A DNA stretch of 64,000 bases from Streptomyces marianii (GTDB taxonomy: Bacteria > Actinomycetota > Actinomycetes > Streptomycetales > Streptomycetaceae). Both the position numbers and the translations under genes were made by a program. Under the pieces are notes generated by a model, which had not been told where the DNA came from, did not search any database, and worked only from the letters and a program-made list of their open reading frames with translations. Below, one piece after another: positions 12,366 to 46,478 of the stretch (positions within the stretch are counted from its first letter, which is position 1; each line of letters begins with the position of its first letter). The stretch is taken from positions 4,076,001 to 4,140,000 of the forward strand of contig NZ_VAWE01000001.1 in NCBI RefSeq assembly GCF_005795905.1, given 5' to 3'.

Positions 12366-12403
12366 GGAAGGTCCCGGGACGCGTTGGCATCCCGGGACCT
12401 TCC
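12366..12403. terminator. Bidirectional hairpin terminator
   Basis: GGAAGGTCCCGGGA (12366-12379) pairs perfectly with TCCCGGGACCTTCC (12390-12403) around a 10-base loop. It lies between the convergent carboxypeptidase and bkdC genes and probably serves both. Confidence 0.85.
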
Positions 12404-12433
12404 TCGTGCGGTGCCGCGTGGTGAACCGGCTGG

Positions 12434-13876: not shown

Positions 13877-13886
13877 GACCCTCTCC

Positions 13887-14867: not shown

Positions 14868-14869
14868 GG

Positions 14870-18370: not shown

Positions 18371-19999
18371 TCAGCCCGGCGTGGTTCCGGTGGTGGTGCC
18401 GGCGTCCGCGCCCGCGTCCGTACCGGTCGTCGTGCCCGCGTCCGTGCCCGTGCTCGTACCGGCATCGGTACCGGTGGTGGTGCCGGCGTCGGTGCCGGTC
18501 GTCGTGCCCGCGTCCGTACCGGTGGACGTGCCCTCCGTCGTGCCCTCGCTGGTGTTGCCCTCCGTCGTCCCGTCCGTGGTGCCCTCGGTGTCCGACGGGG
18601 TGTCGCTCGGGTCGTGGCTCGGGCTCTGCGGCTGCGACGGCGGCGGTTCCTGCCGGGAAGGACGGTCGCTCGGCGGCCATTGGCCCTGGTTGCCGTTCGT
18701 GCCCTGGTCCTCCTCCTCTTCCTCCTCGGATTGCTCCTCCGAGGGGGTCGGCGAAAGGTCGGACTGGGTCGGGGTGTCGGAGACCTTCTGGTCGTCCTTC
18801 GGCTGCGTGCCGGGGTTGCCCGCCCGGTCCAGCGCGAAGGCCACACCCGCCACGACCGCGATCACCGCGAGCGCGACGAACAGCCACACCTTGCCCCTTC
18901 CGCCCCTGCCGCCGCCGGGCCCGGCGGCGTACGCGCCGTCTTCCGGATTGCGCGGCGGGAGGAGCGGGCCCTTCGAGGTCTCCCCGTGGTGCGGATGCCC
19001 CATGACCGCCGTCGCGCCCATGCCCTGCGCCGGGGTGTGGCCGCCCTCGTGCATCTCGACCGGGCCGGTGTTCCAGGCACCCGTGTGGCTGCCCTGCTGC
19101 TGCAGCATCTGCAACCCGTACTGCAGGAGCGCCCGCATCTCCTCGGCGCTCTGGAACCGGTCGTCGGGGTCCTTGGCCAGCGCGCGCATCGCGAGCCCGT
19201 CCAGCTCCGGCGGGGCCACGTCCGAGACCTCGGAAGGGGGCACCGGCATGTCCTGGACGTGCTGGTAGACGACGGACAACGGTGTCTCGCCGGTGAACGG
19301 CGGGCGCAGCGCGAGCAGTTCGTAGAGCAGACAGCCCGTGGCGTACAGGTCCGAGCGGTGGTCGACGGCCTTGCCGAGCGCCTGCTCCGGGGAGAGGTAC
19401 TGGGGCGTGCCCATGACCATGCCGGTCTGGGTCATCGTCGTCGAAGCGCCGTGCAGCGCACGGGCGATGCCGAAGTCCATCACCTTGACCGCGCCGCTGT
19501 TGGTGATGATGACGTTCGCCGGCTTGATGTCGCGGTGGACGATGCCGTGCTGGTGCGAGTACGCGAGTGCCTCGAGGACGCCGGAGACGATGATGAGCGC
19601 CTGCTCCGGCGGCGGCGCCTCGGCGTTGATCAGCAGATCGCGGATGGTGTGGCCCTCGACCAGCTCCATCACGATGTACGGCACGGACTGCCCGTCCACG
19701 ACGTCCTCGCCGGAGTCGTACACCGCCACGATGGCATGGTGGTTGAGGCCCGCGACGGACTGCGCCTCGCGCGTGAAGCGCGCCTTGGACACCGGGTCCT
19801 CGGCCAGATCGGCACGGAGCAGCTTCACGGCGACGGTGCGGCCGAGCCGGACGTCCTCCGCCGCGAACACCTCGGCCATACCGCCCCGGCCGAGACGGTG
19901 GGTCAGTCGGTACCGGCCGTCGCCGACGAGCCCGCCGACGCCCCAGGAGTCAGCAGCATCCGACACTCCGCCGCCATGTGGTCCGGATTCGGGTGCCAT
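18371..19999 (-). CDS. Transmembrane Ser/Thr protein kinase without PASTA domains
   Basis: A 542-residue Hanks-type kinase. Its kinase domain covers about residues 30-290, with the glycine loop LGRGGMAEV, catalytic HRDIKPANV, DFG, and the activation-segment GTPQYLSPEQ. A linker, one transmembrane helix (VWLFVALAVIAVVAGVAFAL) and a long extracellular Ser/Thr/Glu-rich tail follow, ending in about five copies of TGTDAGT[T/S]. There is no recognisable sensor fold outside. It is divergent from a second kinase of the same family at 20302. From memory this matches the pkaF-like region of Streptomyces. Confidence 0.93.
   Translation of the reverse strand: MAPESGPHGGGVSDAADSWGVGGLVGDGRYRLTHRLGRGGMAEVFAAEDVRLGRTVAVKLLRADLAEDPVSKARFTREAQSVAGLNHHAIVAVYDSGEDVVDGQSVPYIVMELVEGHTIRDLLINAEAPPPEQALIIVSGVLEALAYSHQHGIVHRDIKPANVIITNSGAVKVMDFGIARALHGASTTMTQTGMVMGTPQYLSPEQALGKAVDHRSDLYATGCLLYELLALRPPFTGETPLSVVYQHVQDMPVPPSEVSDVAPPELDGLAMRALAKDPDDRFQSAEEMRALLQYGLQMLQQQGSHTGAWNTGPVEMHEGGHTPAQGMGATAVMGHPHHGETSKGPLLPPRNPEDGAYAAGPGGGRGGRGKVWLFVALAVIAVVAGVAFALDRAGNPGTQPKDDQKVSDTPTQSDLSPTPSEEQSEEEEEEDQGTNGNQGQWPPSDRPSRQEPPPSQPQSPSHDPSDTPSDTEGTTDGTTEGNTSEGTTEGTSTGTDAGTTTGTDAGTTTGTDAGTSTGTDAGTTTGTDAGADAGTTTGTTPG
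18380..18540. repeat. 24-base-period tandem repeats in the kinase tail
   Basis: The 3' end of the kinase gene consists of degenerate 24-base units encoding TGTDAGTT. The units differ mostly at third codon positions, suggesting old repeats held by selection on the protein. Length variation between strains would be expected. Confidence 0.75.
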
Positions 20000-33149: not shown

Positions 33150-34673
33150 TCAGAGAGTGCGCAGCAGCACCGCGGGCTGCTCCACGCAGTCCGCCACGTA
33201 CCGGAGGAAGCCGCCGGCCGTGCCTCCATCGCACACCCGGTGGTCGAACGTGAGCGAGAGCTGCACGACCTGGCGGACGGCGAGCTGTCCCTCGTGCACC
33301 CAGGGCTTGGGCACGATACGGCCGACACCGAGCATGGCCGCCTCCGGGTGGTTGATGATCGGCGTGGAGCCGTCGACCCCGAACACGCCGTAGTTGTTCA
33401 GCGTGAACGTGCCGCCCGTGAGGTCGGCCGGAGTGAGGCTGCCCTGGCGGGCCTTGTCGGTGAGCCGCGCGAATTCCTCGGTGAGCGACTCCGCCGGGCG
33501 GTCCTGTGCGTCACGGACGACCGGGACGACCAGGCCTCGGTCGGTCTGGGCCGCGAAGCCGAGATGGATCCCGGGCAGCCGCACGATCTCCCTCGTTTCA
33601 AGATCCACCGTGGAGTTGAGCTCCGGGTGGCGGGTGAGCGCCGCCGTGCAGATACGGGCCAGCAGAGCAAGCAGCGAGATCTTCGGCCCACCCGCCGCGT
33701 TCATGGCCCTGCGGGCGGCCATGAGTTCGGTGGCGTCCGCGTCGACCCAGCAGGTCGCGTCCGGAATCTCCCGGCGGCTGCGGGACAGCTTGTCCGCGAC
33801 GGCGCCACGCACCCCGCGCAGCGGAATCCGCTCACCGGTGGCCGGGCCGCGCGCGGCGCCGATCGCCGGTGCGGGTTCGGTGGCGGGAACCGGCGGTTGT
33901 GCCGCGATGTGCTGCTCGGCCGCGCCGGCACGGGCCCGCACGGCGTGCTCCACGTCCACGCGCAGGACCAGCCCGTCCGGCCCGGACCCCCGCAGTGCCC
34001 GCAGATCGACCCCGTTGTCCCGGGCCAGCCGCCGCACCAGCGGCGAGATGACCGCGACCGGACCTTGGTGGGCGGGCGGGACGGCTTCGAGGACGACGTC
34101 GCCCTGGGCGGGGGTGCCGCGCGGCGCGTCGGGCGCCGGGCTCTCCACGGCGCTGTCCCAGACCGGTTCGTGTCCCGCGGTGGACGCCCCGGACGTCCCG
34201 CCCGGCACGGGTCCGGGAGCCGACGCGACGGGTCCACCACCGCTCGCGGTGCGTGCGTCGCCCGTGGGGGCGGACCTGCCGCCGGTGAGCGCCGGCGGGC
34301 GGACCCTCCGGCGGCGGGCCGCCGGTGCACCCGTCCCGTAGCCCACGAGGACGTTGCCCGAGGACTCCGCCTCCTGGCTCGCGGCGGTGCCGGCACCCTC
34401 GGCGGAGCCGCCGGGGACGGGCTCCGTCGCGCCCACCGCGACGGTGAGCAGGGGAGCCCCGACGGGAAGCTCCGCCCCTTCGTCACCGAAGCGCTGCGTG
34501 ACCACACCCGCGTACGGGCAGGGCACCTCGACCATCGCCTTGGCCGTCTCGACCTCGACGACCGGCTGGTCGATGGCGACGACATCGCCCACGTCCACCA
34601 GCCAGCGGACGATCTCCGCCTCGGTCAGGCCCTCACCGAGGTCCGGCAGCCTGAATTCGAGCACCTGGGCCAT
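33150..34673 (-). CDS. bkdC: Branched-chain 2-oxoacid dehydrogenase E2 (set 2)
   Basis: A 507-residue acyltransferase from ATG 34673, whose first base is the last base of the E1-beta stop (TGATG). The lipoyl domain has its Lys in VETAKAMVEV; a long linker, a peripheral-subunit-binding domain (SPLVRRLARDNGVDLRAL) and the catalytic domain ending FDHRVCDGG follow. It is the last gene of the second bkd operon. The linker is richer in Gly/Thr/Ser than in set 1. Same reaction expected, possibly with different induction. Confidence 0.93.
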   Translation of the reverse strand: MAQVLEFRLPDLGEGLTEAEIVRWLVDVGDVVAIDQPVVEVETAKAMVEVPCPYAGVVTQRFGDEGAELPVGAPLLTVAVGATEPVPGGSAEGAGTAASQEAESSGNVLVGYGTGAPAARRRRVRPPALTGGRSAPTGDARTASGGGPVASAPGPVPGGTSGASTAGHEPVWDSAVESPAPDAPRGTPAQGDVVLEAVPPAHQGPVAVISPLVRRLARDNGVDLRALRGSGPDGLVLRVDVEHAVRARAGAAEQHIAAQPPVPATEPAPAIGAARGPATGERIPLRGVRGAVADKLSRSRREIPDATCWVDADATELMAARRAMNAAGGPKISLLALLARICTAALTRHPELNSTVDLETREIVRLPGIHLGFAAQTDRGLVVPVVRDAQDRPAESLTEEFARLTDKARQGSLTPADLTGGTFTLNNYGVFGVDGSTPIINHPEAAMLGVGRIVPKPWVHEGQLAVRQVVQLSLTFDHRVCDGGTAGGFLRYVADCVEQPAVLLRTL

Positions 34674-35686
34674 CAGCTCTCCGCCTCCCACTGCAGCCGT
34701 GCCACGGCGTCCAGTACCCGGTCCACACCCGGCAGATGGTGACGCTCCAGCATCGGCGGCGGGTAGGGAATGTCGAAACCGGCCACCCTCAGCACGGGGG
34801 CCTCGAGGTGGTGGAAGCAGCGCTCGGTCACCCTGGCCGCGATCTCGCCGCCCGGACCGCCGAAGCCCGTCGACTCGTGGACGACGACGGCCCGGCCCGT
34901 GCGGCGCACGGAGGCGCACACGGTCTCGTCGTCGAACGGCACGAGCGAACGCAGATCCACTACCTCCAGGTCCCAGCCCTCGGCCTCGGCGGCCTCCGCC
35001 GCCTCCATGCAGACCGGCACGGAGGGACCGTAGGTGATGAGCGTGGCGCTGCGCCCCTGGCGGCGCACCACCGCGCGGCCGATGGGTTCCACGGCCGCCG
35101 GGGCGTCCGGCGACCAGTCGGCCTTGGACCAGTAAAGCCGCTTCGGCTCCAGGAAGACCACCGGGTCGTCGGAGGCGATGGCCTCCCGCAGCAGTCCGTA
35201 CGCGTCCTCGACCGTCGCCGGCGTGACGACGTGGAGCCCCGGAGTCGCCATGTAGTACGCCTCGGAGGAGTCGCTGTGGTGCTCGACGCCTCCGATGCCG
35301 CCGCCGTAGGGCACCCGCACGGTGATCGGCAGCGGCATCGCCCCGCGCGTCCGGTTGCGCATCCGGGAGACATGGCTGATCAACTGCTCGAACGCCGGAT
35401 AGGCGAAGGCGTCGAACTGCATCTCGACGACGGGACGCAGCCCGTACATCGCCATGCCGACGGCCGTGCCGAGGATGCCCGCCTCGGCCAGCGGGGTGTC
35501 GGTGCACCGGTCCTCGCCGAACTCCTTGGCGAGCCCGTCCGTGACCCGGAAGACCCCGCCGAGGGTGCCGACGTCCTCGCCCATGACATGGACGGTCGGA
35601 TCCTCGGACATGGCGTCGCGCATCGCGCGCTGGAGAGCCTGCGCCATCGTGGCGGGCTTGGCCTGCCGTGCGGTTGCCGTGCTCAT
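34673..35686 (-). CDS. bkdB: Branched-chain 2-oxoacid dehydrogenase E1 beta (set 2)
   Basis: A 337-residue subunit with VMGEDVGTLGGVFR, DTPLAEAGILGTAVG, VRVPYGGGIGGVEHHSDS and YGPSVPVCMEA. It overlaps E1-alpha upstream by ATGA and E2 downstream by one base, so the three are translated as a coupled unit. Clearly paralogous to 13887-14867 but diverged throughout, so not a recent duplication. Confidence 0.95.
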   Translation of the reverse strand: MSTATARQAKPATMAQALQRAMRDAMSEDPTVHVMGEDVGTLGGVFRVTDGLAKEFGEDRCTDTPLAEAGILGTAVGMAMYGLRPVVEMQFDAFAYPAFEQLISHVSRMRNRTRGAMPLPITVRVPYGGGIGGVEHHSDSSEAYYMATPGLHVVTPATVEDAYGLLREAIASDDPVVFLEPKRLYWSKADWSPDAPAAVEPIGRAVVRRQGRSATLITYGPSVPVCMEAAEAAEAEGWDLEVVDLRSLVPFDDETVCASVRRTGRAVVVHESTGFGGPGGEIAARVTERCFHHLEAPVLRVAGFDIPYPPPMLERHHLPGVDRVLDAVARLQWEAES

Positions 35687-36858
35687 CGTGCGTCACCCTC
35701 CGCGCCGTGGGCGCCCTCTCCGCCCTCGGCGTCGATCTCGGCCCGCAGCTGGGCGGCCTGCTCCCGCAGCTGACCGGTCTGCTCGGCGTACACGTGCTCG
35801 AACAGGTCCATCGGGTTCAGCACGGGATCCGCGTTCATCCGCTCCCTCAGCCGGGCGGCCATCGCCTCGGCGGCCTCGGCGGCCGACCGTACTCCGTCCT
35901 CGTCGAGCAGTCCCCGGCTCGTCAGCTCCGCCTCCAGCAGCCGGATCGGGTCGTGCTCGCGCCAGGCCTCGACCTCGCTCTCACCCCGGTACCGGGTGGC
36001 GTCGTCGGCGTTCGTGTGCGCGTCGATGCGGTAGGTGATCGCCTCGACGAGGGTCGGACCGCCGCCCCGCCGGGCCCGTGCGACGGCTTCGCCGAGCACC
36101 TCGTGCACCGCCGCCGCGTCGTTGCCGTCGACGAGCCGACCGGGCATTCCGTACCCCACGGCCTTGTGCGCGAGGGACGGGGCCGCGGTCTGCTTGGACA
36201 GCGGCACGGAGATCGCGAAGCCGTTGTTCTGCACGAGGAAGACGACCGGCGCCCGCCAGACGGCGGCGAAGTTGAGCGCCTCGTGGAAGTCACCCTCGCT
36301 GGTGCCGCCGTCGCCGACCATGGCGAGCGCCACGACGTCGTCGCCCTTGAGCCGCGCGGCGTGGGCCAGACCCACGGCATGCGGGAGCTGGGTGGCGAGC
36401 GGGGTGGACAGCGGGGCGACGCGGTGCTCGTTCGGGTCGTAACCGGTGTGCCAGTCACCGCGCAGCAGCGTCAGTGCCTGCACCGGGTCGAGCCCGCGGG
36501 CCACGGCGGCGAGGGTGTCCCGGTAGCTGGGGAACAGCCAGTCGCGCTCCTCCAGCGCGAGGGCGGCGGCGACCTCGCAGGCCTCCTGACCTGTGCTCGA
36601 CGGATACACGGCGAGTCTGCCCTGCTTGGTGAGGGCGGTCGCCTGCGCGTTGTACCTGCGGCCGCGGACCAGCTCCGCGTACAGCCGCAGAAGCAGCTCG
36701 GGGTCGGCCCCGGCGGCGGCGTCGGTGCCGAGGACCCGGTACGGCTCCGGGTCGGGAAGCAGCGGCGCAGGGTCGGTGCGGGGCTTCCAGGCGGGCGGCG
36801 GGGTGGGCCGGTAGGCCGCACCCGGCCGCTCCTGGACCGTCATGCTGCTCTTCTTCAA
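35683..36858 (-). CDS. bkdA: Branched-chain 2-oxoacid dehydrogenase E1 alpha (set 2)
   Basis: About 391 residues from TTG 36858, chosen because GAGGAGG sits eight bases upstream; ATG 36843 (MTVQERP) and ATG 36897 are alternatives. The thiamine-diphosphate motif is VGDGGTSEGD then VQNNGFAIS; KQGRLAVYPSSTGQEA and FPSYRDTLAAVARG are characteristic. First gene of bkdABC set 2, divergent from the AsnC-type regulator bkdR. A TetR-type operator-like site (36928-36941) lies in the shared promoter region. Confidence 0.94.
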   Translation of the reverse strand: MKKSSMTVQERPGAAYRPTPPPAWKPRTDPAPLLPDPEPYRVLGTDAAAGADPELLLRLYAELVRGRRYNAQATALTKQGRLAVYPSSTGQEACEVAAALALEERDWLFPSYRDTLAAVARGLDPVQALTLLRGDWHTGYDPNEHRVAPLSTPLATQLPHAVGLAHAARLKGDDVVALAMVGDGGTSEGDFHEALNFAAVWRAPVVFLVQNNGFAISVPLSKQTAAPSLAHKAVGYGMPGRLVDGNDAAAVHEVLGEAVARARRGGGPTLVEAITYRIDAHTNADDATRYRGESEVEAWREHDPIRLLEAELTSRGLLDEDGVRSAAEAAEAMAARLRERMNADPVLNPMDLFEHVYAEQTGQLREQAAQLRAEIDAEGGEGAHGAEGDAR

Positions 36859-36927
36859 CGCGAGCACCTCCTCGTGGGAGCGGGCATAAGGACCCATGAA
36901 GGGCGCGGAGTGTGAGGCGCCTCACCT

Positions 36928-36941
36928 ACCGATTGTTCGGT
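36928..36941. promoter_or_regulatory. paa-type TetR operator candidate upstream of bkd set 2
   Basis: ACCGATTGTTCGGT differs from the paaH/paaN intergenic site ACCGATCGTTCGGT by one base and has the same ACCGA/TCGGT-type arms. It lies about 70 bases before the E1-alpha start and 100 before bkdR. Confidence 0.65.
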
Positions 36942-37042
36942 CGTGGGCGCATTTTGGCTACAGGCACCTCCAGCCTGTGGACAAACGGTTCTCCACAGCC
37001 TGGGATAGGAGCAGGTCGTCCACGGCGGAAAGGTGGGGGGAC

Positions 37043-37573
37043 GTGACAGCTGAACAAATGGCCGACGACGGGGACCGCACGGTCTACGCAGCGGTGCCCG
37101 GCGCGGACCAGGGGCGGCCGGCGCGCACCCTGGACGCGATCGACCGCGACATCCTCCGCATCCTCCAGACGGACGGCCGCGCCTCGATACGGTCCGTGGC
37201 CGAACGCGTCCACGTGTCGCGGGCCAACGCCTACGCCCGCATCAACCGGCTGATCGACGACGGAGTGATCCGGGGCTTCAGCGCACGGGTGAACCACGAG
37301 CGCGCCGGCCACGGCGCCTCGGCCTACATCACCCTCAAGATCGTCCAGAACTCGTGGCGGACGGTGCGCGAGCAGCTCCAGGCACTGCCCGGGGCCGCCC
37401 ACATAGCGCTGGTCAGCGGCGACTTCGACGTGCTGCTCCTGGTCCACACGCCGGACAACCGCACCCTGCGGGAACTCGTGCTGACCAGGCTCCAGGCGAT
37501 CCCCGAGGTGCTCTCCACCCGCACACTGCTGGTCTTCGAGGAGACGGACCTGGATCCGGACCCGGTGCGCTGA
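37043..37573 (+). CDS. bkdR: Lrp/AsnC-family regulator BkdR
   Basis: A 176-residue protein from GTG 37043 (AGGTGG upstream), with an alternative ATG at 37058. The N-terminal AsnC HTH (LDAIDRDILRILQTDGRASI, HVSRANAYARINRLIDDG) is followed by the RAM ligand-binding domain (FDVLLLVHTPDN, TRTLLVFEETDLD). It is divergent from bkdA set 2, the position of BkdR in other Streptomyces, where the protein controls bkd expression and branched-precursor supply. Assignment by sequence and context is strong. Confidence 0.92.
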   Translation: MTAEQMADDGDRTVYAAVPGADQGRPARTLDAIDRDILRILQTDGRASIRSVAERVHVSRANAYARINRLIDDGVIRGFSARVNHERAGHGASAYITLKIVQNSWRTVREQLQALPGAAHIALVSGDFDVLLLVHTPDNRTLRELVLTRLQAIPEVLSTRTLLVFEETDLDPDPVR

Positions 37574-37748
37574 CGCCCGTGCGGGCGCTCGTCACCGTAC
37601 CCGGCACGCGGCGGTGCCCCGCCGGACCGGACCACGGCGAGGCCGTCCGACCAGACGCACCCCGGCCCCGGGCGGGATCCGGGCCCGCGACGCCGTACGC
37701 CCGTGGCACACGAACCCCACGCCCGCGGTGCGGGGCGCGGGCCCTGGC

Positions 37749-38342
37749 TCAGGACGCCGTGCGCAGGCCGTCGAAGGCCAGCCGGACCACCGCGTCCGCG
37801 ACCTGCTGCCGGTCGTAGCCGGTTCCGGCCTGCGGCCTGTACCACTCCACCAGGGAGTTGACCATGCCGAACAGCAGCCGCGTCGCCAGCCTCGTGTCCA
37901 TGTCCGCGCGCAGGTCGCCGTCCGCTGCGGCCGCCTTGAGGAGATCGGCGACCCGGTGGTCGAACTCGCGGCGCCGTTCCATGGCCCACCGCTCGGTCCT
38001 GGTGTTGCCCCGGACCCGCAGCAGCAGCGTGACGTAGGGCAGCTCCGCCATCAGCACCTCGACGGTGCGGCGGGTCACGTACTCCACGCGTTCCAGCGCC
38101 CGTCCGCGCGTCGCGCCCGGCTCCTCGAGGATCCCGAAGAGCCCGTCGAGGGCGCGGCTGACGGCCCGCCTCAGCAGTTCCTCCTTGCCGGCCACGTGGT
38201 GGTATATCGACGACTTGGAGATGCCCGCGGCCTTGGAGAGGTGCTCCATGGAAGTGCCGTCGTAACCGCGTTCGTTGAAGACCCCGACGGCGACGGACAG
38301 CAGCGTCTCCGGGGTGTACGTGTCGCGCTTCGCGGTCGTCAT
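37749..38342 (-). CDS. TetR-family regulator (PaaR-like candidate)
   Basis: A 197-residue protein from ATG 38342, overlapping the paaH stop by ATGA. The N-terminal HTH is VGVFNERGYDGTSMEHLSKA then GISKSSIYHHVAGKEELL. The C-terminal ligand domain contains the aromatic VEWYRPQAGTGYD helix. Being co-transcribed with paaH and close to paaN and paaABCDE, it is the obvious candidate to bind the repeated ACCGAnCGnTCGGT palindromes and respond to phenylacetyl-CoA, as PaaR does in other actinobacteria. That target assignment is inference. Confidence 0.9.
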   Translation of the reverse strand: MTTAKRDTYTPETLLSVAVGVFNERGYDGTSMEHLSKAAGISKSSIYHHVAGKEELLRRAVSRALDGLFGILEEPGATRGRALERVEYVTRRTVEVLMAELPYVTLLLRVRGNTRTERWAMERRREFDHRVADLLKAAAADGDLRADMDTRLATRLLFGMVNSLVEWYRPQAGTGYDRQQVADAVVRLAFDGLRTAS

Positions 38343-39889
38343 GAGGCCTGCTCGCCCTTCATCCGAACGTACGACTGGCGATAGAGGCCCAGTGACGGCG
38401 CATAGCGGCCGGTCGGCACGCGCGCGTGGAGTTCGTCGAGGAGCTCGTGGGCCCAGGCGCGGCCCAGCCGGTGCCCCCATTCCACGGGGCCGACCGGGTA
38501 GTTGACCCCGAGCCGCATGGCGGTGTCGACGTCCTCCGGGGAGGCGACCCCCTTGGCGACGGCGTCGGCCGCGGCGTCCACGAGCATCGCGACCGTCCGC
38601 GCGACGATCATGCCGGGAACGTCGCCGATGACGCTGACCTTCTTGCCGAGGGCCTGGAAGAGGCCGATCGACTGCCGCAGGGTCTCCCAGCCGGTGACCT
38701 CCGAAGCGGACAGGGCGATCCTGGTCGCCGACCGGTAGTCGAGGGCCAGGTCGAAGTAGACGACGTCACGGAACTCCGCCGACGTCTGCCCGTCCGCGAG
38801 CACGAGCTGCCCGCCGCTCGGGAGCAGCATGCGGGTCCCTCGGTCCTCGTCCTCCTCGTGCACCGTGATGCCGGACTCCCGGCACAGCGTGATCAAGGCC
38901 CGGGCCGGCCCCAGGTCGCCCTCCACGGTGATGTGCGGCGGGGGCTCGGTCGCCGGGGCGGTGTGCGGCTCGGGACGCTCCGCGCCGTCCTCGTAGGCGT
39001 ACCAGCCGTGGCCCGACTTGCGCCCGAGGCGGCCCGACTCCACGAGACGGCGCTGGGCGAGCGACGGCGCGAACTTGGGGCTCCGGAAGAACGACTCCCA
39101 CACGGAGCGGGTGACCGCCTCGTTGACGTCCTGGCCGATCAGGTCGGTGAGCTCGAACGGGCCCATCCTGAATCCGCCGCACTCGCGCAGGATCGCGTCG
39201 ATGGTGGCGGGGTCCGCGCCGCGCTCCTCGTGGACCGCGAAGGCCTCGGCGTAGAACGGCCGGGCGATGCGGTTGACGATGAACCCGGGGGTGTCCGCAC
39301 AGCGGACCGGGGTCTTGCCCCACGCCTTCGCCGTCTCGTGTGCGCGGGCGGCCGCGTCCTCGTCGGTGGCGAAGCCGCTGACGACCTCGACCAGCGGAAG
39401 AAGCGGCGCCGGGTTGAAGAAGTGCAGTCCGACGAAGCGTCCTGGACGGCGCAGCGCGCCCGCGACGGCGGTGACGGACAGGGAGGAGGTGTTGGTGGCG
39501 AGGAGGCAGTCGTCGGCGACGACCTCCTCGAGCGCACGGAAGAGCTCCTGCTTGACGGCGAGGTCCTCGACGACGGCCTCGATGACGAGCGCGCTGTCCG
39601 CGAGCTCGGCGATCTCCGTCGTTCGCGTCAGCCGGAGGGCCGCGGCGCCGCGGGCCTCCTCCTCCAGCCGCCCCTTCTCGACCAGCCGCTCCAGGCGGGT
39701 CAGGATCGCGCCCGCGCCGGACTCCGCCTGGCCGGGGGCGACGTCGTAGAGGCGCACACGGTGGCCGGCGAGCAGCGCGACCTGCGCGATGCCCTGCCCC
39801 ATGGTGCCGGCGCCCACGACGGCGACGGTGCGGCCGGGGGCGATGGCGTCGGTGCCGCTCGGGCCCCCGGCGGCGTCGGTGACGGTCAT
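38339..39889 (-). CDS. paaH: 3-hydroxyacyl-CoA dehydrogenase (PaaH-like)
   Basis: A 516-residue protein. The N-terminal NAD domain carries the glycine motif GAGTMGQGIAQ, catalytic segments NTSSLSVT and GLHFFNPAPLLPLVEV, and the first C-terminal domain starts TPGFIVNRIARPFY. A second dehydrogenase C-terminal domain (DVPGMIVARTVAMLVD) makes it the long two-C-domain form typical of PaaH/PaaC. It would oxidise 3-hydroxyadipyl-CoA late in phenylacetate degradation. Divergent from paaN with an operator candidate between. Confidence 0.92.
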   Translation of the reverse strand: MTVTDAAGGPSGTDAIAPGRTVAVVGAGTMGQGIAQVALLAGHRVRLYDVAPGQAESGAGAILTRLERLVEKGRLEEEARGAAALRLTRTTEIAELADSALVIEAVVEDLAVKQELFRALEEVVADDCLLATNTSSLSVTAVAGALRRPGRFVGLHFFNPAPLLPLVEVVSGFATDEDAAARAHETAKAWGKTPVRCADTPGFIVNRIARPFYAEAFAVHEERGADPATIDAILRECGGFRMGPFELTDLIGQDVNEAVTRSVWESFFRSPKFAPSLAQRRLVESGRLGRKSGHGWYAYEDGAERPEPHTAPATEPPPHITVEGDLGPARALITLCRESGITVHEEDEDRGTRMLLPSGGQLVLADGQTSAEFRDVVYFDLALDYRSATRIALSASEVTGWETLRQSIGLFQALGKKVSVIGDVPGMIVARTVAMLVDAAADAVAKGVASPEDVDTAMRLGVNYPVGPVEWGHRLGRAWAHELLDELHARVPTGRYAPSLGLYRQSYVRMKGEQAS

Positions 39890-39945
39890 GGCAGTGATCC
39901 TCCCCTACGAGTCATCCACAGGATCTGCGGACCCCCCTTGTCCCG

Positions 39946-39959
39946 ACCGATCGTTCGGT
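39946..39959. promoter_or_regulatory. TetR operator candidate between paaH and paaN
   Basis: ACCGATCGTTCGGT has inverted arms ACCGA and TCGGT around TCGT. Its reverse complement, ACCGAACGATCGGT, is identical to the site in front of paaA (45416-45429). It resembles the known actinobacterial PaaR consensus ACCGnnCGnnCGGT. Confidence 0.75.
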
Positions 39960-40013
39960 TACTCTAACTCTGTCCGCGTTCCCCTGCCCAGCTCACCGAG
40001 GAGTTGGTCTGCC

Positions 40014-41675
40014 ATGCAGCTGACCGAGACCCACCGGCCGACGCTCGACCGGGCTCTCGAGGCGATCCGCACCCGGGCGTACTGGTCGCCCCACCCCGAG
40101 CATCCGAAGGCGTACGGCGAGACCGGCGCTGCCGACGGCCTCGCGGCGTACCAGGCCCTGCTCGGCTCGCGTTTCGAGCTCGACCAACCCGGCACCGACG
40201 GCTGGACCGGCGGAGAGGTGTCGCCGTACGGACCGGAGCTGGGCATCGAGTATCCGCATCCGGACCTCGACGTCCTGCTGCCGGCGATGCGCGCGGGCAT
40301 GGCCGCCTGGCGCGACGCGGGCCCGGAGACGCGCGCCCTGGTCTGCCTGGAGGTCCTGTCGCGCATCAGCGCCCGCACCCACGAGTTCGCCCACGCGGTC
40401 ATGCACACGAGCGGCCAGGCGTTCATGATGGCGCTCCAGGCCGGCGGCCCGCACGCCCAGGACCGCGGTCTGGAGGCGGTGGCGTACGCCTATGAGGAGC
40501 AGACGCGCACGCCGCAGACCGCCGACTGGTCCAAGCCCCAGGGCAAGCGGGACCCCCTGGAGCTCCGAAAGGCCTTCACGGCCGCCCCGCGCGGCATCGC
40601 GCTGCTGATCGGCTGCAACACCTTCCCGACGTGGAACGGCTACCCGGGCCTGTTCGCCTCGCTGGCCACCGGCAACCCCGTGCTGGTGAAGCCCCACCCG
40701 CGCGCGGTCCTCCCGCTCGCCATGACGGTCCGGATCGCCCGTGAGGTGCTGGGCGAGGCGGGCTTCGACCCGAACCTGGTGGCCCTGGCCGCCGAGCGCC
40801 CCGGCGAGGGCATCGCCAAGACGCTCGCACTCCGCCCGGAGATCAAGATCATCGACTACACCGGGTCGACCGAGTTCGGCGACTGGCTCGAGGAGAACGC
40901 CCGCCAGGCCCAGGTCTACACGGAGAAAGCCGGCGTCAACACGGTGGTGATCGACTCCACCGACGACTACAAGGGGATGCTGTCGAACCTGGCGTTCTCG
41001 CTGTCCCTGTACAGCGGCCAGATGTGCACCACCCCGCAGAACCTGCTCATTCCGCGCGACGGCATCACCACGGACGCCGGCCCCAAGTCGTACGACGAGG
41101 TCGTCGCCGACATCGCGGCCTCCGTGAGCGGTCTGCTCGGCGACGACGGCCGGGCGAATGCCCTGCTGGGCGCCCTGGTGAACCCGGACGTGAAGGCGCG
41201 CCTCGAGGCTGCGGCGGGTCTGGGCGAGGTGGCACTGCCCTCCCGCGAGGTCGCCAATCCGGAGTTCCCCGACGCCGTCGTGCGCACACCCGTGATCGTG
41301 AAGCTGGACGGTGCCAAGCCGGACGACGAGGCGTCGTTCATGTCCGAGTGCTTCGGGCCGGTGTCCTTCGCCGTCGCGGTCGACTCGACGAGCGACGCGC
41401 TGGAGCTGCTGCGCCGCACGGTGCGCGACAAGGGCGCGATGACGGTCGGCGCGTACACGACCTCGGCGGAGACCGAGCGTGCGGTCGAGGAGGTCTGCCT
41501 GGAGGAGTCGGCGCAGCTCTCCCTGAACCTCACGGGCGGCGTCTATGTGAACCAGACGGCGGCGTTCTCGGACTTCCACGGCTCCGGGGGCAACCCCGCG
41601 GCCAATGCGGCCCTGTGCGACGGCGCCTTCGTGTCCAACCGCTTCCGCGTGGTGGAGATCCGCCGCCAGGCCTGA
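40014..41675 (+). CDS. paaN: Phenylacetate degradation aldehyde dehydrogenase PaaN
   Basis: A 553-residue protein from ATG 40014, with GAGGAG upstream. It matches the stand-alone PaaN type (aldehyde dehydrogenase fold without the fused MaoC hydratase): IGCNTFPTWNGYPG, LVKPHPRAVLPLAM, IIDYTGSTEFGDWLEE, and the catalytic-cysteine region SGQMCTTPQN. It oxidises the ring-opened semialdehyde-CoA intermediate. Full length for the family. Divergent from paaH. Confidence 0.93.
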   Translation: MQLTETHRPTLDRALEAIRTRAYWSPHPEHPKAYGETGAADGLAAYQALLGSRFELDQPGTDGWTGGEVSPYGPELGIEYPHPDLDVLLPAMRAGMAAWRDAGPETRALVCLEVLSRISARTHEFAHAVMHTSGQAFMMALQAGGPHAQDRGLEAVAYAYEEQTRTPQTADWSKPQGKRDPLELRKAFTAAPRGIALLIGCNTFPTWNGYPGLFASLATGNPVLVKPHPRAVLPLAMTVRIAREVLGEAGFDPNLVALAAERPGEGIAKTLALRPEIKIIDYTGSTEFGDWLEENARQAQVYTEKAGVNTVVIDSTDDYKGMLSNLAFSLSLYSGQMCTTPQNLLIPRDGITTDAGPKSYDEVVADIAASVSGLLGDDGRANALLGALVNPDVKARLEAAAGLGEVALPSREVANPEFPDAVVRTPVIVKLDGAKPDDEASFMSECFGPVSFAVAVDSTSDALELLRRTVRDKGAMTVGAYTTSAETERAVEEVCLEESAQLSLNLTGGVYVNQTAAFSDFHGSGGNPAANAALCDGAFVSNRFRVVEIRRQA

Positions 41676-41690
41676 CCTCCGGTTCTTGCG

Positions 41691-41716
41691 GCCCGGCCCG
41701 CGCGAGCGGGCCGGGC
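41691..41716. terminator. Hairpin terminator after paaN
   Basis: GCCCGGCCCGC (41691-41701) and GCGGGCCGGGC (41706-41716) pair perfectly around loop GCGA, between paaN and the convergent broken SpoU gene. Confidence 0.85.
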
Positions 41717-41933
41717 GTCGCTCTCACGGGCGGGTCAGGACTCCGGAGGGACGTCCCCGTACCGCTGGATCCAGGAGTGCGTGGCGATCGCGGCGGCCGC
41801 GCCGGCGTTGATCGAGCAGGTGGAGGCGAACCGGGGATCGAGCACACCATGGCGGCGCCGCCCCACACCGTGGATCTCCTTGGCCAGGGTGGCGTTGGCG
41901 GTCCTGACCACGGAACCGATGCCGAAGTATCGG

Positions 41934-42716
41934 TTACATAGCAGGGCTGGAGAGCGATGAGTCGTCTTGGGGACCTCCCCAGTGGAACAAAGCCATGGCC
42001 ACGCTGGTCGCAAGGTTGTAGCTCGACACCTGGGGCCGCATAGGAAGGGCCAGCAGTTTGGTTGCCCGGCCTCGGAGCTCAGGCGAGACCCCGTGCCGCT
42101 CGGAGCCGAACACAAGCAGCGCGTCACCGGGGATGGCCACGGACCTGATGTCCTCCCCCTCAGGGTCCAGGGCATACATCGGGCCTGGTGGCAGATCGTT
42201 GAAGGGGAGCCGTTCGACGGCGGTCGCAAAGTGCAGACCCGCGCCCGCCCTCACCGCGTTGGGGTGCCAAGGGTCCACGCCACCGGTGGTGACGACGCCT
42301 GTGGCCCCAAAACCGGCAGCAAGACGAACCACGGCCCCGACATTCCCAAGATTGCGCGGGTTGTCCAGAACGACGATCGGTGACGTCCTCGGCAACCGCA
42401 CCAGCCCCGCCAGGTTCGTCTGCCGACTTCGCCTGGTGGCCAGAGAGACCACCTGCGTAGGGTGAACCCTCGGCACCAGTTTCCGCAGGGTTTGCCCGGG
42501 TACTTCGACGACAAGATCCCTCATGCGGTCCGTCACGTCGTCGGCGAGCGAATCGGCCAACGCCAGGGCGGCTTCCTTGTCGCTGGTGACTGCGACTCGT
42601 ACGTCCGCTCCGAAACGAAGCGCGTGCTTCAGCGCATGGAAGCCGTCAAGCAGCACAGCGTCGGGTGCGGCCTCACTCCACTTCCGTACAGCCCTCGTGG
42701 CCTCGTCATCGCTCAT
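41934..42716 (-). CDS. TrmH-family RNA 2'-O-methyltransferase, inserted
   Basis: A 260-residue SPOUT enzyme. The three knot motifs are present: VLDNPRNLGNVGAVVRLAAG, LLVFGSERHGVS and LPMRPQVSSYNLATSVAMAL. An N-terminal substrate-binding-like domain begins LLDGFHALKHALRFGA. It would methylate a ribose 2'-OH in rRNA or tRNA using SAM. It lies entirely within the segment interrupting the native SpoU gene, with more AT-ending codons and visibly lower GC than its neighbours, so it was probably acquired. Could be housekeeping replacement or a resistance-type rRNA methylase; no close similarity to TsnR is apparent by eye. Confidence 0.88.
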   Translation of the reverse strand: MSDDEATRAVRKWSEAAPDAVLLDGFHALKHALRFGADVRVAVTSDKEAALALADSLADDVTDRMRDLVVEVPGQTLRKLVPRVHPTQVVSLATRRSRQTNLAGLVRLPRTSPIVVLDNPRNLGNVGAVVRLAAGFGATGVVTTGGVDPWHPNAVRAGAGLHFATAVERLPFNDLPPGPMYALDPEGEDIRSVAIPGDALLVFGSERHGVSPELRGRATKLLALPMRPQVSSYNLATSVAMALFHWGGPQDDSSLSSPAM

Positions 42717-43019
42717 CGACTCAGGCTACGACGCCAGTCAGCTGCTTCACCGCATCGCACAACGCCCTCAGGGCCAGCTCCGTCGTTTCGGTGTGGGTTC
42801 GGGGCTCTACGCGTTCGGGCTCCTCGGCACACCCGGCACGGTCGGCTGTCGCGTCGCAGACAAGCTGTGCGACAAGACCCTCCTGCCGGGGCTGAGTACC
42901 CGGTTCGTCAGGGCACGGACCGGATGTCCTCGGTGACGAAGCACCCCGTTATGGACACAGCGGACTGCCTCGGTGAGCTGCGGGCCACCGGAAAGGGCAT
43001 GCACAGCGGCCAGCTTCAG
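42717..43019. other. Non-coding remainder of the insertion
   Basis: About 300 bases between the inserted methyltransferase start and the SpoU N-terminal fragment. No convincing gene is seen. It presumably carries the promoter of the inserted gene; no terminal inverted repeats, transposase or integrase remnant is visible. Confidence 0.5.
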
Positions 43020-43248
43020 GCCCCAGTTCTCCACGGCCACGTGGAAGTCGTGCCGCCGGGTGTCCAGGCCGACGACGATCGCCTCCCGCGTCCAGTAGCG
43101 GTACCGGTCGACCACGTTCCGCCGGTCCCCGGCCGCGAGCAGTTCGGGATCGTACGGCGCCCCGTCCGGCCACGGGGCCGGATGGGGACCGACGCCCACC
43201 TCCGGGCCGTAGCCGTCGTCGTACCGAACGGGTTCAGGGTCTCGGTGC

Positions 43249-44445
43249 TCACCCGACGAGGGTACGGGTGGCCTGCTCCTCGGGTGTAGTGCGCTGCTCG
43301 GGGATCCGTACCGCCCGCCGCAGGACCCGGTCCCTGGCGCCGGCCGCCCAGCCGCCGAGTCGGCACAGGAAGGAGGTGGGCAGGAAGACGGCGTCGGCGG
43401 CGATCATCGCGAGGGAGAAGAAGGGCAGTCCGAGGAGGAGGGCGATGCCGGCGTGCTCCAGCATCATCGCCACCAGCAGGACGTTCTTGACCTTGCGGTT
43501 GAACAGCGTGAAGGGGAACGCGACCTGCACGATCACCGTGCCGTAGGTCAGCACCATCACCATCAGCCCGCTGTTGGCGAGGATGTCGGAGAGCGCGGGC
43601 CAGGGCGTGAAGTAGTCGAGTTTGAGCGGGTAGTACAGCGCGCTGCCGTCCTGCCACCGGGAGCCCTGGATCTTGTACCAGCCGGCCGTGGCGTAGATCA
43701 GGCAGACCTCCGCCATGATCACCACGAGGGCGCCGTTGTGGGCGAGGTTGGCGAGGACGTCGAGAAGGGTGCGGAGCTCGCTGCGCGGCGCTCGGCGGTT
43801 CACCGCCCACCACACGCCCTGGCAGCCCCACAGCCCCCAGAGCAGGAGGGTAAGCCACCACTCCCCGCCGGTCCGCTCCGTCAGCGACCCGACGAGGAGC
43901 AGCAGACCGAGCACCACCCAGAGCACCGGCCCCCAGCGGTCCGGCGCCCGGTCCGCGGTGTCCGTCGTGCGTCGCGCCCGCCGGGCGTCCAGGGACCAGA
44001 CCTGGCCGCAGCGGGTGAACACGAGATAGACCGCGATCAGATGGATCACGTTGTCGCCGCCGTCGCCCATGAAGATGGACCGGTTCTGCAGCGACAGCAC
44101 GCCGACCATGAAGACCACCGACATGGCGCGGGTGCGCCAGCCGAGCAGCAGCAGCGCGGCGGACAGCACGGCGACGGCGTACACGATCTCGAACCAGACG
44201 GCGCTGTCCGACCACATGAGCGCGGTGAACGCGTGGTTCTCGGCGATCAGCTGCTGGGCCATGTCCCAGCCCCAGGGGCCGTCCGGGCCGTACAGCTCGC
44301 GGCGGTGCGGGAACTCGCGCAGCAGGAACAGCAGCCAGGTCAGGGAGAAGCCGATCCGGACGATCGCACTCTGGTACGGGCCGAGGGCCGTCGACGTCAC
44401 CCGCTGGACGGCGGCGGCGAGCCGGCGGTCGAGTGGCTGGGTCAC
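43249..44445 (-). CDS. HTTM-domain membrane protein (gamma-carboxylase-like)
   Basis: A 398-residue polytopic protein from GTG 44445, overlapping the DUF5819 stop as GTGA. The HTTM/VKGC-like features are YQSAIVRIGFSLTWLLFLLR, GDGGDNVIHLIAVYLVFTR, and the loop with YKIQGSRWQDGSALYYPL. HTTM proteins share the membrane fold of vitamin K-dependent gamma-glutamyl carboxylase but bacterial substrates are unknown. It is encoded between the DUF5819 protein and the former SpoU methyltransferase in one coupled operon. Confidence 0.92.
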   Translation of the reverse strand: MTQPLDRRLAAAVQRVTSTALGPYQSAIVRIGFSLTWLLFLLREFPHRRELYGPDGPWGWDMAQQLIAENHAFTALMWSDSAVWFEIVYAVAVLSAALLLLGWRTRAMSVVFMVGVLSLQNRSIFMGDGGDNVIHLIAVYLVFTRCGQVWSLDARRARRTTDTADRAPDRWGPVLWVVLGLLLLVGSLTERTGGEWWLTLLLWGLWGCQGVWWAVNRRAPRSELRTLLDVLANLAHNGALVVIMAEVCLIYATAGWYKIQGSRWQDGSALYYPLKLDYFTPWPALSDILANSGLMVMVLTYGTVIVQVAFPFTLFNRKVKNVLLVAMMLEHAGIALLLGLPFFSLAMIAADAVFLPTSFLCRLGGWAAGARDRVLRRAVRIPEQRTTPEEQATRTLVG

Positions 44446-45332
44446 CGGCCCGTCTCCTCGTCGTTCGCGCCGTTGCGCACGTCGAGGGGCAGATCTGCGG
44501 AGGTCACGGTCCACCAGGGGAGCATCCGGTAGTACGGGCGGGTGTCGATCTTCTCGCGGCTCCACAGCGGCGCCTTGACCGAGCGGGTGGCGGAACGGAG
44601 CTGGATACGCTCGACGCGTCCGCCCAGGTCGTGGTCGTCCAGGCGCGTCATCACGATGCGGCGGACGTAGCGCTCGGAGAGCTGGCCGCGCAGGCCGTTG
44701 GGCTTGTTGTCGTCCGTGTGGGAGTTGCCGTAGAAGTCCCAGCCCCTGCGCAGTTCGTTCTGGTGCACATGGCTGGGCAGGAGGTTGCCCCGGATCGCCT
44801 CGCCGTCCTCGGCCGAGAGGTCGATCCAGTCGCTCGTCCGGCGGCTGCCGTCACGTCCGGCGACCTCGGCGCGCACCTGGACCGCGATGTTCTGCTGGAG
44901 CGGGTTGGGCGCGAAGAGCTTCCAGTTCTGCTCGAACTCGGGGTAGATCCACTCGTCGACCCCCTTGCCGTACCGCTTGGTCAGCGTGTTCGACGGCGCG
45001 ACGTGCAGGAACACCATGGCCAGGTGGACGCCCGCGAGGACGGCGACGAGCCCGAGGGCGACCGCGGCCACGACCTGGTAGGGGAGGGAGAGGGCCGCGA
45101 TACCGCCGGACGGGCGCTGCCGGAGCGGTGCCTCGCCCGGGACGCCGGCTCCGGTCGCGTCGTCCGCGGGGCCGGCGGGCGCGGGCGCTCCCGGGTCGCC
45201 GGTCGCACCGTCACCGGTCGTCGCGCCGCGCCGGTCCGGACCGCCTGAGCTGCCCGAATCGCGTATCGCGCCCGGCACGACGGGCGGAACCGCTCCGGCG
45301 CCCGCGGCACCGTCGCCGTCGTACGAGTCCAT
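44442..45332 (-). CDS. DUF5819 family membrane protein
   Basis: A 296-residue protein from ATG 45332 with GGGGCGGG upstream. A ~75-residue Gly/Ala/Asp/Pro-rich cytoplasmic tail precedes one membrane helix (LPYQVVAAVALGLVAVLAGV). An extracellular domain follows with YPEFEQNWKLFAPNPLQQN, typical of DUF5819. DUF5819 genes sit beside HTTM genes in many actinobacteria, and the GTGA overlap here implies equimolar expression, so the two are probably partners in a membrane complex. Divergent from paaA. Confidence 0.9.
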   Translation of the reverse strand: MDSYDGDGAAGAGAVPPVVPGAIRDSGSSGGPDRRGATTGDGATGDPGAPAPAGPADDATGAGVPGEAPLRQRPSGGIAALSLPYQVVAAVALGLVAVLAGVHLAMVFLHVAPSNTLTKRYGKGVDEWIYPEFEQNWKLFAPNPLQQNIAVQVRAEVAGRDGSRRTSDWIDLSAEDGEAIRGNLLPSHVHQNELRRGWDFYGNSHTDDNKPNGLRGQLSERYVRRIVMTRLDDHDLGGRVERIQLRSATRSVKAPLWSREKIDTRPYYRMLPWWTVTSADLPLDVRNGANDEETGR

Positions 45333-45415
45333 CCCGCCCCGATCCCCTTGGTCCACCGCGGCTATCCACAGGGTTGACACCTTACGGGCCGCCGACTCAC
45401 CATTGAAGTCATTCA

Positions 45416-45429
45416 ACCGAACGATCGGT
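45416..45429. promoter_or_regulatory. TetR operator candidate upstream of paaA
   Basis: ACCGAACGATCGGT ends 14 bases before the paaA ATG, just upstream of its AGGGGG ribosome site, so binding would block paaABCDE transcription. TTGAA-GTCA-TTCAA (45403-45416) directly abuts it and TTGACA (45374-45379) is a possible -35. Confidence 0.75.
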
Positions 45430-45443
45430 CGGTAGGGGGTCCG

Positions 45444-46478
45444 ATGACGGCAGTGACAGCAGGGACGGCTGCGGCTTCGACGCACCAGGCGCGGTTCGAC
45501 GCTGCCATGGCGGCCGACGAGCGCATCGAGCCCCGCGACTGGATGCCCGACGACTACCGCGCCTCGCTGGTCCGCCAGATGGCACAGCACGCGCACTCGG
45601 AGATCATCGGCATGCAGCCCGAGGCGAACTGGATCACGCGCGCGCCCTCGCTGCGCCGCAAGGCCATTCTCATGGCCAAGGTCCAGGACGAGGCCGGCCA
45701 CGGCCTGTACCTCTACAGCGCCACGGAGACGCTCGGCGTGGGCCGGGACGAGCTGCTCGACAAGCTCCACTCGGGCCGCCAGAAATACTCCTCGATCTTC
45801 AACTACCCGACGCTGACCTGGGCCGACGTCGGCGCGATCGGCTGGCTGGTCGACGGCGCCGCCATCACCAACCAGGTTCCGCTCTGCCGCTGCTCCTACG
45901 GTCCGTACGCCCGCGCGATGGTCCGGATCTGCAAGGAGGAGTCCTTCCACCAGCGCCAGGGGTACGAGCTGCTGCTGGCCCTCTCCCAGGGCACGCCCGC
46001 CCAGCACGAGATGGCCCAGGACGCGGTGGACCGCTGGTGGTGGCCGTCGCTGATGATGTTCGGCCCCCCGGACGACGCGTCGGCACACTCCGCACAGTCC
46101 ATGGCATGGAAGATCAAGCGGCACTCCAACGACGAGCTGCGCCAGCGGTTCGTGGACATCTGCGTGCCGCAGGCGGAGGCCCTGGGCCTGACCCTGCCGG
46201 ACCCGGACCTGCGCTGGAACGAGGAGCGTGGTCACCACGACTTCGGCGCCATCGACTGGGACGAGTTCTGGCAGGTCCTCAAGGGCAACGGACCGTGCAA
46301 CGAGCAGCGGATCACACAGCGCCGCAAGGCCCACGAGGACGGCGCCTGGGTGCGCGAGGCAGCCGCGGCCCATGCCGCCAAGCGCGCCTCCGGCCGCCCC
46401 GGGGCGCCGCACGAGTCAACAGCGTCGGACGGGTCGGGCAGGGAGTCCGACGAGGCACAGGTGGAGGCGACGGCATGA
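45444..46478 (+). CDS. paaA: 1,2-phenylacetyl-CoA epoxidase subunit A
   Basis: A 344-residue ferritin-like di-iron oxygenase subunit. Iron-ligand regions are [14 protein letters not shown] and [38 protein letters not shown] is the family N-terminus. It epoxidises the ring of phenylacetyl-CoA using O2 with electrons from PaaE. A ~40-residue disordered C-terminus follows. First gene of paaABCDE; its stop overlaps paaB (ATGA). Confidence 0.96.

Follow-up and report, generated by a model that had tools for sequence, protein, structure and literature searches.

A predicted PaaR operator common to phenylacetate catabolism promoters and the divergent bkdF-bkdR promoters of Streptomyces

A stretch of 64 kb from the chromosome of Streptomyces marianii (contig NZ_VAWE01000001.1, positions 4,076,001 to 4,140,000; called the window below, and numbered from its first base) contains genes for phenylacetate degradation (paa) in the neighbourhood of bkd genes for a 2-oxoacid dehydrogenase complex and its regulator BkdR. 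The bkd genes supply starters for branched fatty acids and for many polyketide antibiotics. In an earlier note on this DNA, three palindromes were read as variants of one TetR-type operator, and a coupling of aromatic acid catabolism to branched-acyl-coenzyme A (CoA) supply was predicted. This raised the question whether a single regulator serves both gene groups, and to what end. The genome comparisons presented here suggest that phenylacetate breakdown and the bkd complex are probably switched together in Streptomyces and close relatives, with the TetR-family repressor PaaR as the common regulator.

The 14-bp palindrome ACCGA-N4-TCGGT is present three times in the window, at 36928, 39946 and 45416. 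As had been noted, the three are variants of one palindrome: the copy at 36928 differs from the others by a single letter in the centre, the sites at 39946 and 45416 are reverse complements of each other, and a TetR gene lies between the sites. The sites and the genes next to them are the following.

35683..36858, minus strand: bkdF, 2-oxoacid dehydrogenase complex, E1 alpha subunit; TTG start deduced from the presence of a GAGGAGG site
36928..36941, plus strand: predicted PaaR operator ACCGATTGTTCGGT, in the divergent intergenic region of bkdF and bkdR
37043..37573, plus strand: bkdR, Lrp/AsnC-type regulator, GTG start
37749..38342, minus strand: paaR, TetR-family repressor of 197 amino acids, ortholog of SCO3833 (PDB 2IAI match, TetR_N, TetR_C_24)
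38339..39889, minus strand: paaH, 3-hydroxyacyl-CoA dehydrogenase, its stop overlapping the paaR start
39946..39959, plus strand: predicted PaaR operator ACCGATCGTTCGGT, in the paaH-paaN gap, flanked by a -35-like TTGTCC and a -10-like TACTCT (identified by eye)
40014..41675, plus strand: paaN, phenylacetic acid degradation protein (TIGR02288)
45416..45429, plus strand: predicted PaaR operator ACCGAACGATCGGT, in the paaA promoter after a TTGACA-like -35 (identified by eye)
45444..46478, plus strand: paaA, first gene of the phenylacetyl-CoA epoxidase operon (TIGR02156)

With up to two mismatches, exactly these three matches to ACCGATTGTTCGGT were found in the window against 0.21 expected, the expectation being taken from dinucleotide shuffles (n=100), of which none reached three. 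The broader pattern ACCGAWCGWTCGGT, also with up to two mismatches, gave five matches against 1.09 expected, a number reached by 1 of 100 shuffles; one of the two extra matches overlaps the 45416 site, and the other, at 41472 within the paaN frame, looks incidental. When the scan was extended to the whole genome (9.01 Mb, 7 contigs), which the earlier note had suggested as a check, ACCGAWYGWTCGGT was found without mismatch at four places, namely the three window sites and C1:7989840. In the per-genome counts, exact matches are present in 60 of 61 Streptomyces genomes, in most of them at two to four places, and G037 contains none; the operator pattern read backwards, used as a control, occurred at two places in total across the same 61 genomes. 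A chance origin of the motif was rejected on the basis of the shuffles, the whole-genome scan and the backward control. Matches with one mismatch were also seen at five further places of the S. marianii genome (L005-L009; C1:2857701, 2879800, 3517865, 3959436 and 4801118).

The bkd copy was then followed through the family. Exact ACCGATTGTTCGGT lies between bkdF and bkdR in all 98 Streptomyces loci with both genes in reach, and in 29 of 30 loci from other genera of the Streptomycetaceae. The Streptomyces sample consisted of 100 genomes fetched out of 118 PaaR-positive ones, besides S. marianii; two loci were set aside from the 98 and examined separately, L048 (genome G089), without bkd genes in the stretch, and L105 (G010), with rearranged bkd genes. 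For the other genera, 32 of 43 PaaR-positive genomes were fetched, and the 30 remain after removal of L174, which is cut inside bkdR, and L192, where paaR has no bkd neighbour. The bkd pair of G089 was located about 16 kb from paaR, and the operator is found with bkd. Where PaaR is present, the operator is conserved at the bkdF/bkdR promoter in these samples, the exceptions being G010 and G139. For the 127 site-bearing loci, column identity averages 0.66 over the 30 bp that precede the site and 0.75 over the 86 bp that follow it, the identity of the site itself being 1 by construction, since the loci were picked as site holders. When public genomes were scanned for CCNACCGATTGTTCGGTYG, at least 120 stretches matched, and at least 107 of them have the site in the bkdF-bkdR gap; among the matches listed, nine had one of the two genes in reach with the site at most 250 bases from the end of the stretch, one was a 276-base piece with bkdR-leader letters, and three were unrelated.

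Genomes that lack PaaR (no match at E <= 1e-40) provide a natural test. Ten of these were searched for bkdR, together with G121, a PaaR holder, and four of the ten (G037, G129, G134 and G155) contain a bkdR match at E <= 1e-30. The bkd site is present in none of the four, and no site within two mismatches was found near their bkdR genes; the divergent bkdF-bkdR pair is present in G129 and G155. In G037, the sequence ACAGATTGTTCGAA was identified, with three differences, all in the arms; TTGTTC is retained, as is its 17-bp distance to GGCTA. The comparison of 128 of 130 PaaR holders with the site (98 loci, G089 and 29 loci) to 0 of 4 PaaR-less genomes gives a Fisher p of 1.2e-6, kinship ignored.

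The TetR protein is PaaR, and its binding at these sites is predicted from sequence. The best PDB match of the paaR product is SCO3833 (2IAI, E 2.3e-92), and it has the TetR fold with an N-terminal helix-turn-helix (TetR_N 8.9e-15, TetR_C_24 7.6e-18); a start at 38342 is more likely than one at 38480. A PaaR ortholog was identified in 119 of 121 Streptomyces genomes (E <= 1e-40). In 99 of the 100 fetched Streptomyces loci paaN is near paaR on the same stretch, and outside the Streptomycetaceae 24 of 27 paaR loci contain at least one paa gene, one of them a weak paaH match alone. With the overlap of the paaH stop and the paaR start, the two genes seem to be transcribed together from the 39946 promoter, and paaR is probably self-controlled via the 39946 site. 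In some Streptomyces (G086, G033, G011 and G068) a second PaaR paralog of about 60% identity is present, which in G011, G068 and G086 lies 6-8 kb from a paaA. In the window, the region between paaN and paaA codes for a protein (43249-44565) with a weak SdpB-family match, below the model cut-off.

At the paa promoters of Streptomyces, ACCGA-N4-TCGGT is conserved as well. Its outer ten letters are kept at the paaN promoter in 99 of 99 loci with paaN, with all 14 letters in 96, and the operator is exact at the paaA promoter in 77 of 78 loci with paaA; in the remaining case, G106, an exact site lies about 500 bp before the paaA match, outside the 350 bp scanned. The centres of the paaN and paaA operators often differ in the other genera of the family, examples being ACCGACCATTCGGT and ACCGAACGGTCGGT. 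A fourth form, ACCGAATGATCGGT, which precedes paaK, was found in 45 of 61 Streptomyces genomes; the outer letters are common to all four site types in Streptomyces. Of 31 such loci inspected, 28 have a paaK-type gene downstream, 26 with an L158-like product (judged by eye) and two with AMP-binding-type products; the L158 product passes the NCBIfam PaaK model with 709 bits (cut-off 646). In two of the other three loci the site precedes paaR, and the third, L004 of S. marianii, has no paaK behind it. L004 (C1:7988340-7991353, site at 1501-1514) is thus an orphan paaK-type promoter with the operator ACCGAATGATCGGT at C1:7989840, and no paaK remnant was found within 3 kb. Upstream of paaH, at about 39912, a TCCACAG motif is conserved in many Streptomyces loci, and ahead of the paaA promoter of S. 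marianii, at about 45363, lies TATCCACAG of the same type; both resemble a motif in the bkdR leader described below.

Control of paa genes by PaaR is already known. PaaR of Streptomyces pristinaespiralis (SSDG_03033) is likewise a TetR-type repressor of the paa genes, with the putative site AACGA-N4-TCGGT, one letter from the pattern found here (PMC10933834). However, it was tied to the paa genes and pristinamycin precursor supply, and no bkd target is named in the part of that paper available. For Burkholderia, the operator ACCGACCGGTCGGTT was reported to be validated by reporter assays and electrophoretic mobility shift assays, with PaaR released by phenylacetyl-CoA (PMC9493321). The outer ten letters of the bkd operator are those of ACCGACCGGTCGGTT; they are shared by the paaA and paaZ operators of Burkholderia cenocepacia, and nine of them by its paaH operator (PMC9493321). 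The PaaR proteins of B. cenocepacia, Thermus thermophilus and Corynebacterium glutamicum are TetR-type and were described as phenylacetyl-CoA-responsive. Unlike the bkd site considered here, the targets described for them are paa promoters, and the Thermus half-sites read AACG instead of ACCG. On the bkd side, the bkdR gene of the window corresponds to the Lrp gene known as SCO3832 and, in S. albus, as XNRR2_3053, with the same neighbouring dehydrogenase operon, as judged from the adjacency of the SCO3833 ortholog; the S. albus account, as far as available, mentions no PaaR input at bkd (PMC8176718). PccD and AccR of actinomycetes are also TetR regulators and are tied to short-chain acyl-CoA, and PccD is reported to control a branched-chain dehydrogenase (BCDH) operon directly (PMC8176718). 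Their binding sites differ, however, with GTTAA-N6-TTAAC for AccR against ACCGA-N4-TCGGT here. A PaaR-bkd link was not found in the Creative Commons-licensed literature searched, which leaves out key earlier work on bkdR and PaaR, and priority for the link is unproven.

With the conservation at both gene groups and the absence of the bkd copy in the four PaaR-less genomes, it is very likely that the bkd operator is bound by PaaR. Its target may be bkdFGH, bkdR or both. The sign of control, the effector and the substrate of the complex are inferred as well, and the best explanation overall, which we consider fairly probable, is the following. PaaR would occupy operators at four promoter regions of its predicted Streptomyces regulon, those of paaA, paaH/paaN, paaK and the divergent bkdF/bkdR. 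A PaaR dimer on the bkd copy would lie over a -35-like element of bkdR and over the region immediately upstream of bkdF, so that both promoters would be blocked and bkdFGH, probably also bkdR, would be held low until phenylacetyl-CoA appears and releases PaaR. The likeliest use would be a putative feed-in step, in which BkdFGH would turn phenylpyruvate, derived from phenylalanine, into phenylacetyl-CoA, and the source and the sink of phenylacetyl-CoA would be induced together.

The promoter elements in the bkdF-bkdR region bear on which of the two genes is addressed.

36933..36938, plus strand: TTGTTC operator core, -35-like element of a putative bkdR promoter, kept in G037, where the arms differ
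36953..36961, plus strand: TTTGGCTAC, its GGCTAC part 17 bp after TTGTTC, -10-like

The G037 sequence suggests that the operator core doubles as part of the bkdR promoter. In Streptomyces, the spacing between TTGTTC and the TTTGG[CT]TA that follows it is the same in 97 of 98 loci and one base longer in the remaining one. The unchanging centre of the bkd copy would be explained by this second use of the core. The distance to the bkdR GTG is 102 bp from the end of the operator, and that to the inferred bkdF start is 70 bp from the operator's beginning; for a minus-strand bkdF promoter, a TNGG motif touches the operator, and no -35 could be named by eye. In the bkdR leader (36971-37002), an imperfect inverted repeat CAGCCTGTGGA...TCCACAGCCTG encloses the DnaA-box-like TGTGGACAA, the consensus of the DnaA box being TTGTCCACA; GTGGACAA in this leader is well kept throughout the family, with some variation, also in members in which the repeat is not conserved. 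A perfect palindrome, GTGAGGCGCCTCAC, lies at 36912-36925, two bases from the PaaR operator, and is partly kept in many Streptomyces, but not in other genera.

It is conceivable from this anatomy that PaaR acts on bkdR only, so that phenylacetyl-CoA would raise BkdR and the bkd operons would change second-hand. The resemblance of the operator core to the bkdR -35 element and its fixed distance from TTTGGCTAC in Streptomyces agree with such a route, as does G037, in which bkdR is present without a bkdF in the 18 kb fetched and the core and the spacing persist. Nevertheless, the operator is a mere 70 bp upstream of the inferred bkdF start in the window, and if BkdR represses bkd, bkdFGH should fall, whereas the bkd E1 and E2 genes of Streptomyces rimosus rise together with paa. 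In strain HP126, the bkd E1 alpha, E1 beta and E2 genes (SRIMR7_19995-20005) are listed at 5.0, 4.6 and 4.7 (PMC10612213, Table 2), the phenylacetyl-CoA epoxidase subunits E, D and C (19935-19945) at 4.1, 3.5 and 3.3, and the phenylacetate-CoA ligase gene paaK (35410) at 3.1; in the delta-v3 column of HP126, six of these seven genes are negative and one is 0 (PMC10612213). From the closeness of their locus numbers, the bkd and paa genes listed would represent the bkdF-bkdR-paaR neighbourhood. As a correlation, their joint rise fits a common response of the predicted regulon, and it speaks for bkdFGH itself being repressed. Control through bkdR only was considered rather unlikely.

The remaining genes of the complex lie directly downstream of bkdF.

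34673..35686, minus strand: bkdG, E1 beta subunit, assigned by domain and PDB searches
33150..34673, minus strand: bkdH, E2 subunit with lipoyl, E3-binding and 2-oxoacid_dh domains

The three genes are adjacent on the same strand with the expected domains, and one operon is predicted. The purpose proposed by the earlier note, a coupling of aromatic catabolism to branched-chain acyl-CoA supply for fatty acid and polyketide starters instead of phenylacetyl-CoA production, is in agreement with the described control of a branched-chain dehydrogenase complex by bkdR and the effect of bkdR on polyketide output in S. albus (PMC8176718), and with the branched-chain label of the complex in S. rimosus (PMC10612213). 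However, the window contains a second BCDH-type set of E1 alpha, E1 beta and E2 genes at 12400-15900, with 43, 58 and 39% identity to bkdF, bkdG and bkdH, and no PaaR operator was found at this set (12.4-15.9 kb); moreover, there is no evident reason for phenylacetyl-CoA to signal a need for isobutyryl- or isovaleryl-CoA. While the TetR operator shared by paa and bkd is strongly supported by comparative genomics, with PaaR as the regulator, the branched-acyl-CoA purpose is unlikely; only one of the two sets bears the operator. As an alternative role, bkdFGH beside bkdR might be the phenylpyruvate (aryl-pyruvate) dehydrogenase arm of phenylalanine catabolism in the Streptomycetaceae, a tentative assignment. 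In S. pristinaespiralis, the pyruvate-dehydrogenase-like pair PglB/C is reported to convert phenylpyruvate to phenylacetyl-CoA (PMC7089894). In the S. marianii genome, paaA is intact and no paaK ortholog was found at E <= 1e-60, so phenylacetyl-CoA may come from elsewhere, although a more distant ligase is possible. The missing paaK ortholog and the PglB/C precedent together favour bkdFGH as the phenylacetyl-CoA feeder.

That the bkd palindrome is just part of a promoter or serves another regulator, for example BkdR, and resembles PaaR sites by coincidence, is very improbable: outside Streptomyces it is steadier than the paa operators and within Streptomyces it sits amid other conserved elements, but BkdR is present in all four site-less genomes, G037 keeps the core without the arms common to the paa operators, and the backward control gave 2 places in 61 genomes against mostly 2-4 per genome for the true pattern. 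BkdR as the reader of the palindrome is made unlikely by its persistence in these four genomes.

Several observations weigh against the explanation by PaaR repression with phenylpyruvate feed-in. G139 has the bkdF-bkdR-paaR synteny, yet no bkd site, and G010 has PaaR, yet no site between bkdR and bkdF, a nearby site being located between paaR and bkdR. In G037 and G134 no bkdF is in reach, and G155 (1650 contigs, 7% contamination) shares its genus with G139, which leaves fewer than four independent absences; this genus may never have had the bkd site. In other genera, TTTGG[CT]TA was found in 4 of 29 loci, one base further on, so that the supposed bkdR promoter lacks a conserved TTTGGCTA part there and this part of the promoter reading is valid for Streptomyces only. 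In the same genera, the bkd site varies less than the paa operators, and its centre is therefore probably constrained by more than PaaR. The nearest PDB relatives are a pyruvate dehydrogenase for E1 alpha and a 2-oxo acid dehydrogenase for E1 beta, and the sequence leaves the substrate unfixed. Finally, HP126 carries many mutations, and the co-induction of bkd and paa is a correlation only.

Outside the Streptomycetaceae, a PaaR-bkd link was not found: bkdF was present in none of 27 loci, which gave one weak bkdR-like match. Exact-pattern matches were identified in 14 of 25 PaaR-holding genomes (23 of the 25 outside the family). Of the 22 loci derived from them, 16 contain a paa gene, among them that of G139, which lies close to bkdR but has its site at paaN; the other six have no bkd gene within 1.5 kb. 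These six contain MFS transporter genes (L224, L225, L242), an EamA transporter gene (L228), a DUF4956 gene (L234) or a weak TetR match alone (L241). The exact 14 letters of the bkd operator precede the MFS genes in L224 and L225 (one genus, PaaR present) and the EamA gene in L228; these sites could be further PaaR targets, or chance. The PaaR-type operators at the MFS and EamA genes of L224, L225, L242 and L228 possibly place aromatic acid uptake under PaaR.

If bkdFGH feeds phenylacetyl-CoA into the pathway, the phenylacetyl-CoA pathway could operate even in strains without PaaK, like S. marianii, and a complex that is filed under branched-chain metabolism and polyketide starters would stand under aromatic control. 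Phenylacetyl-CoA in turn feeds phenylglycine antibiotics and tropolones (PMC7089894, PMC7497051). If the control by PaaR holds in nearly all Streptomyces, feeding of phenylacetate or phenylalanine, or deletion of paaR, would shift acyl-CoA supply in a way that is not presently planned for.

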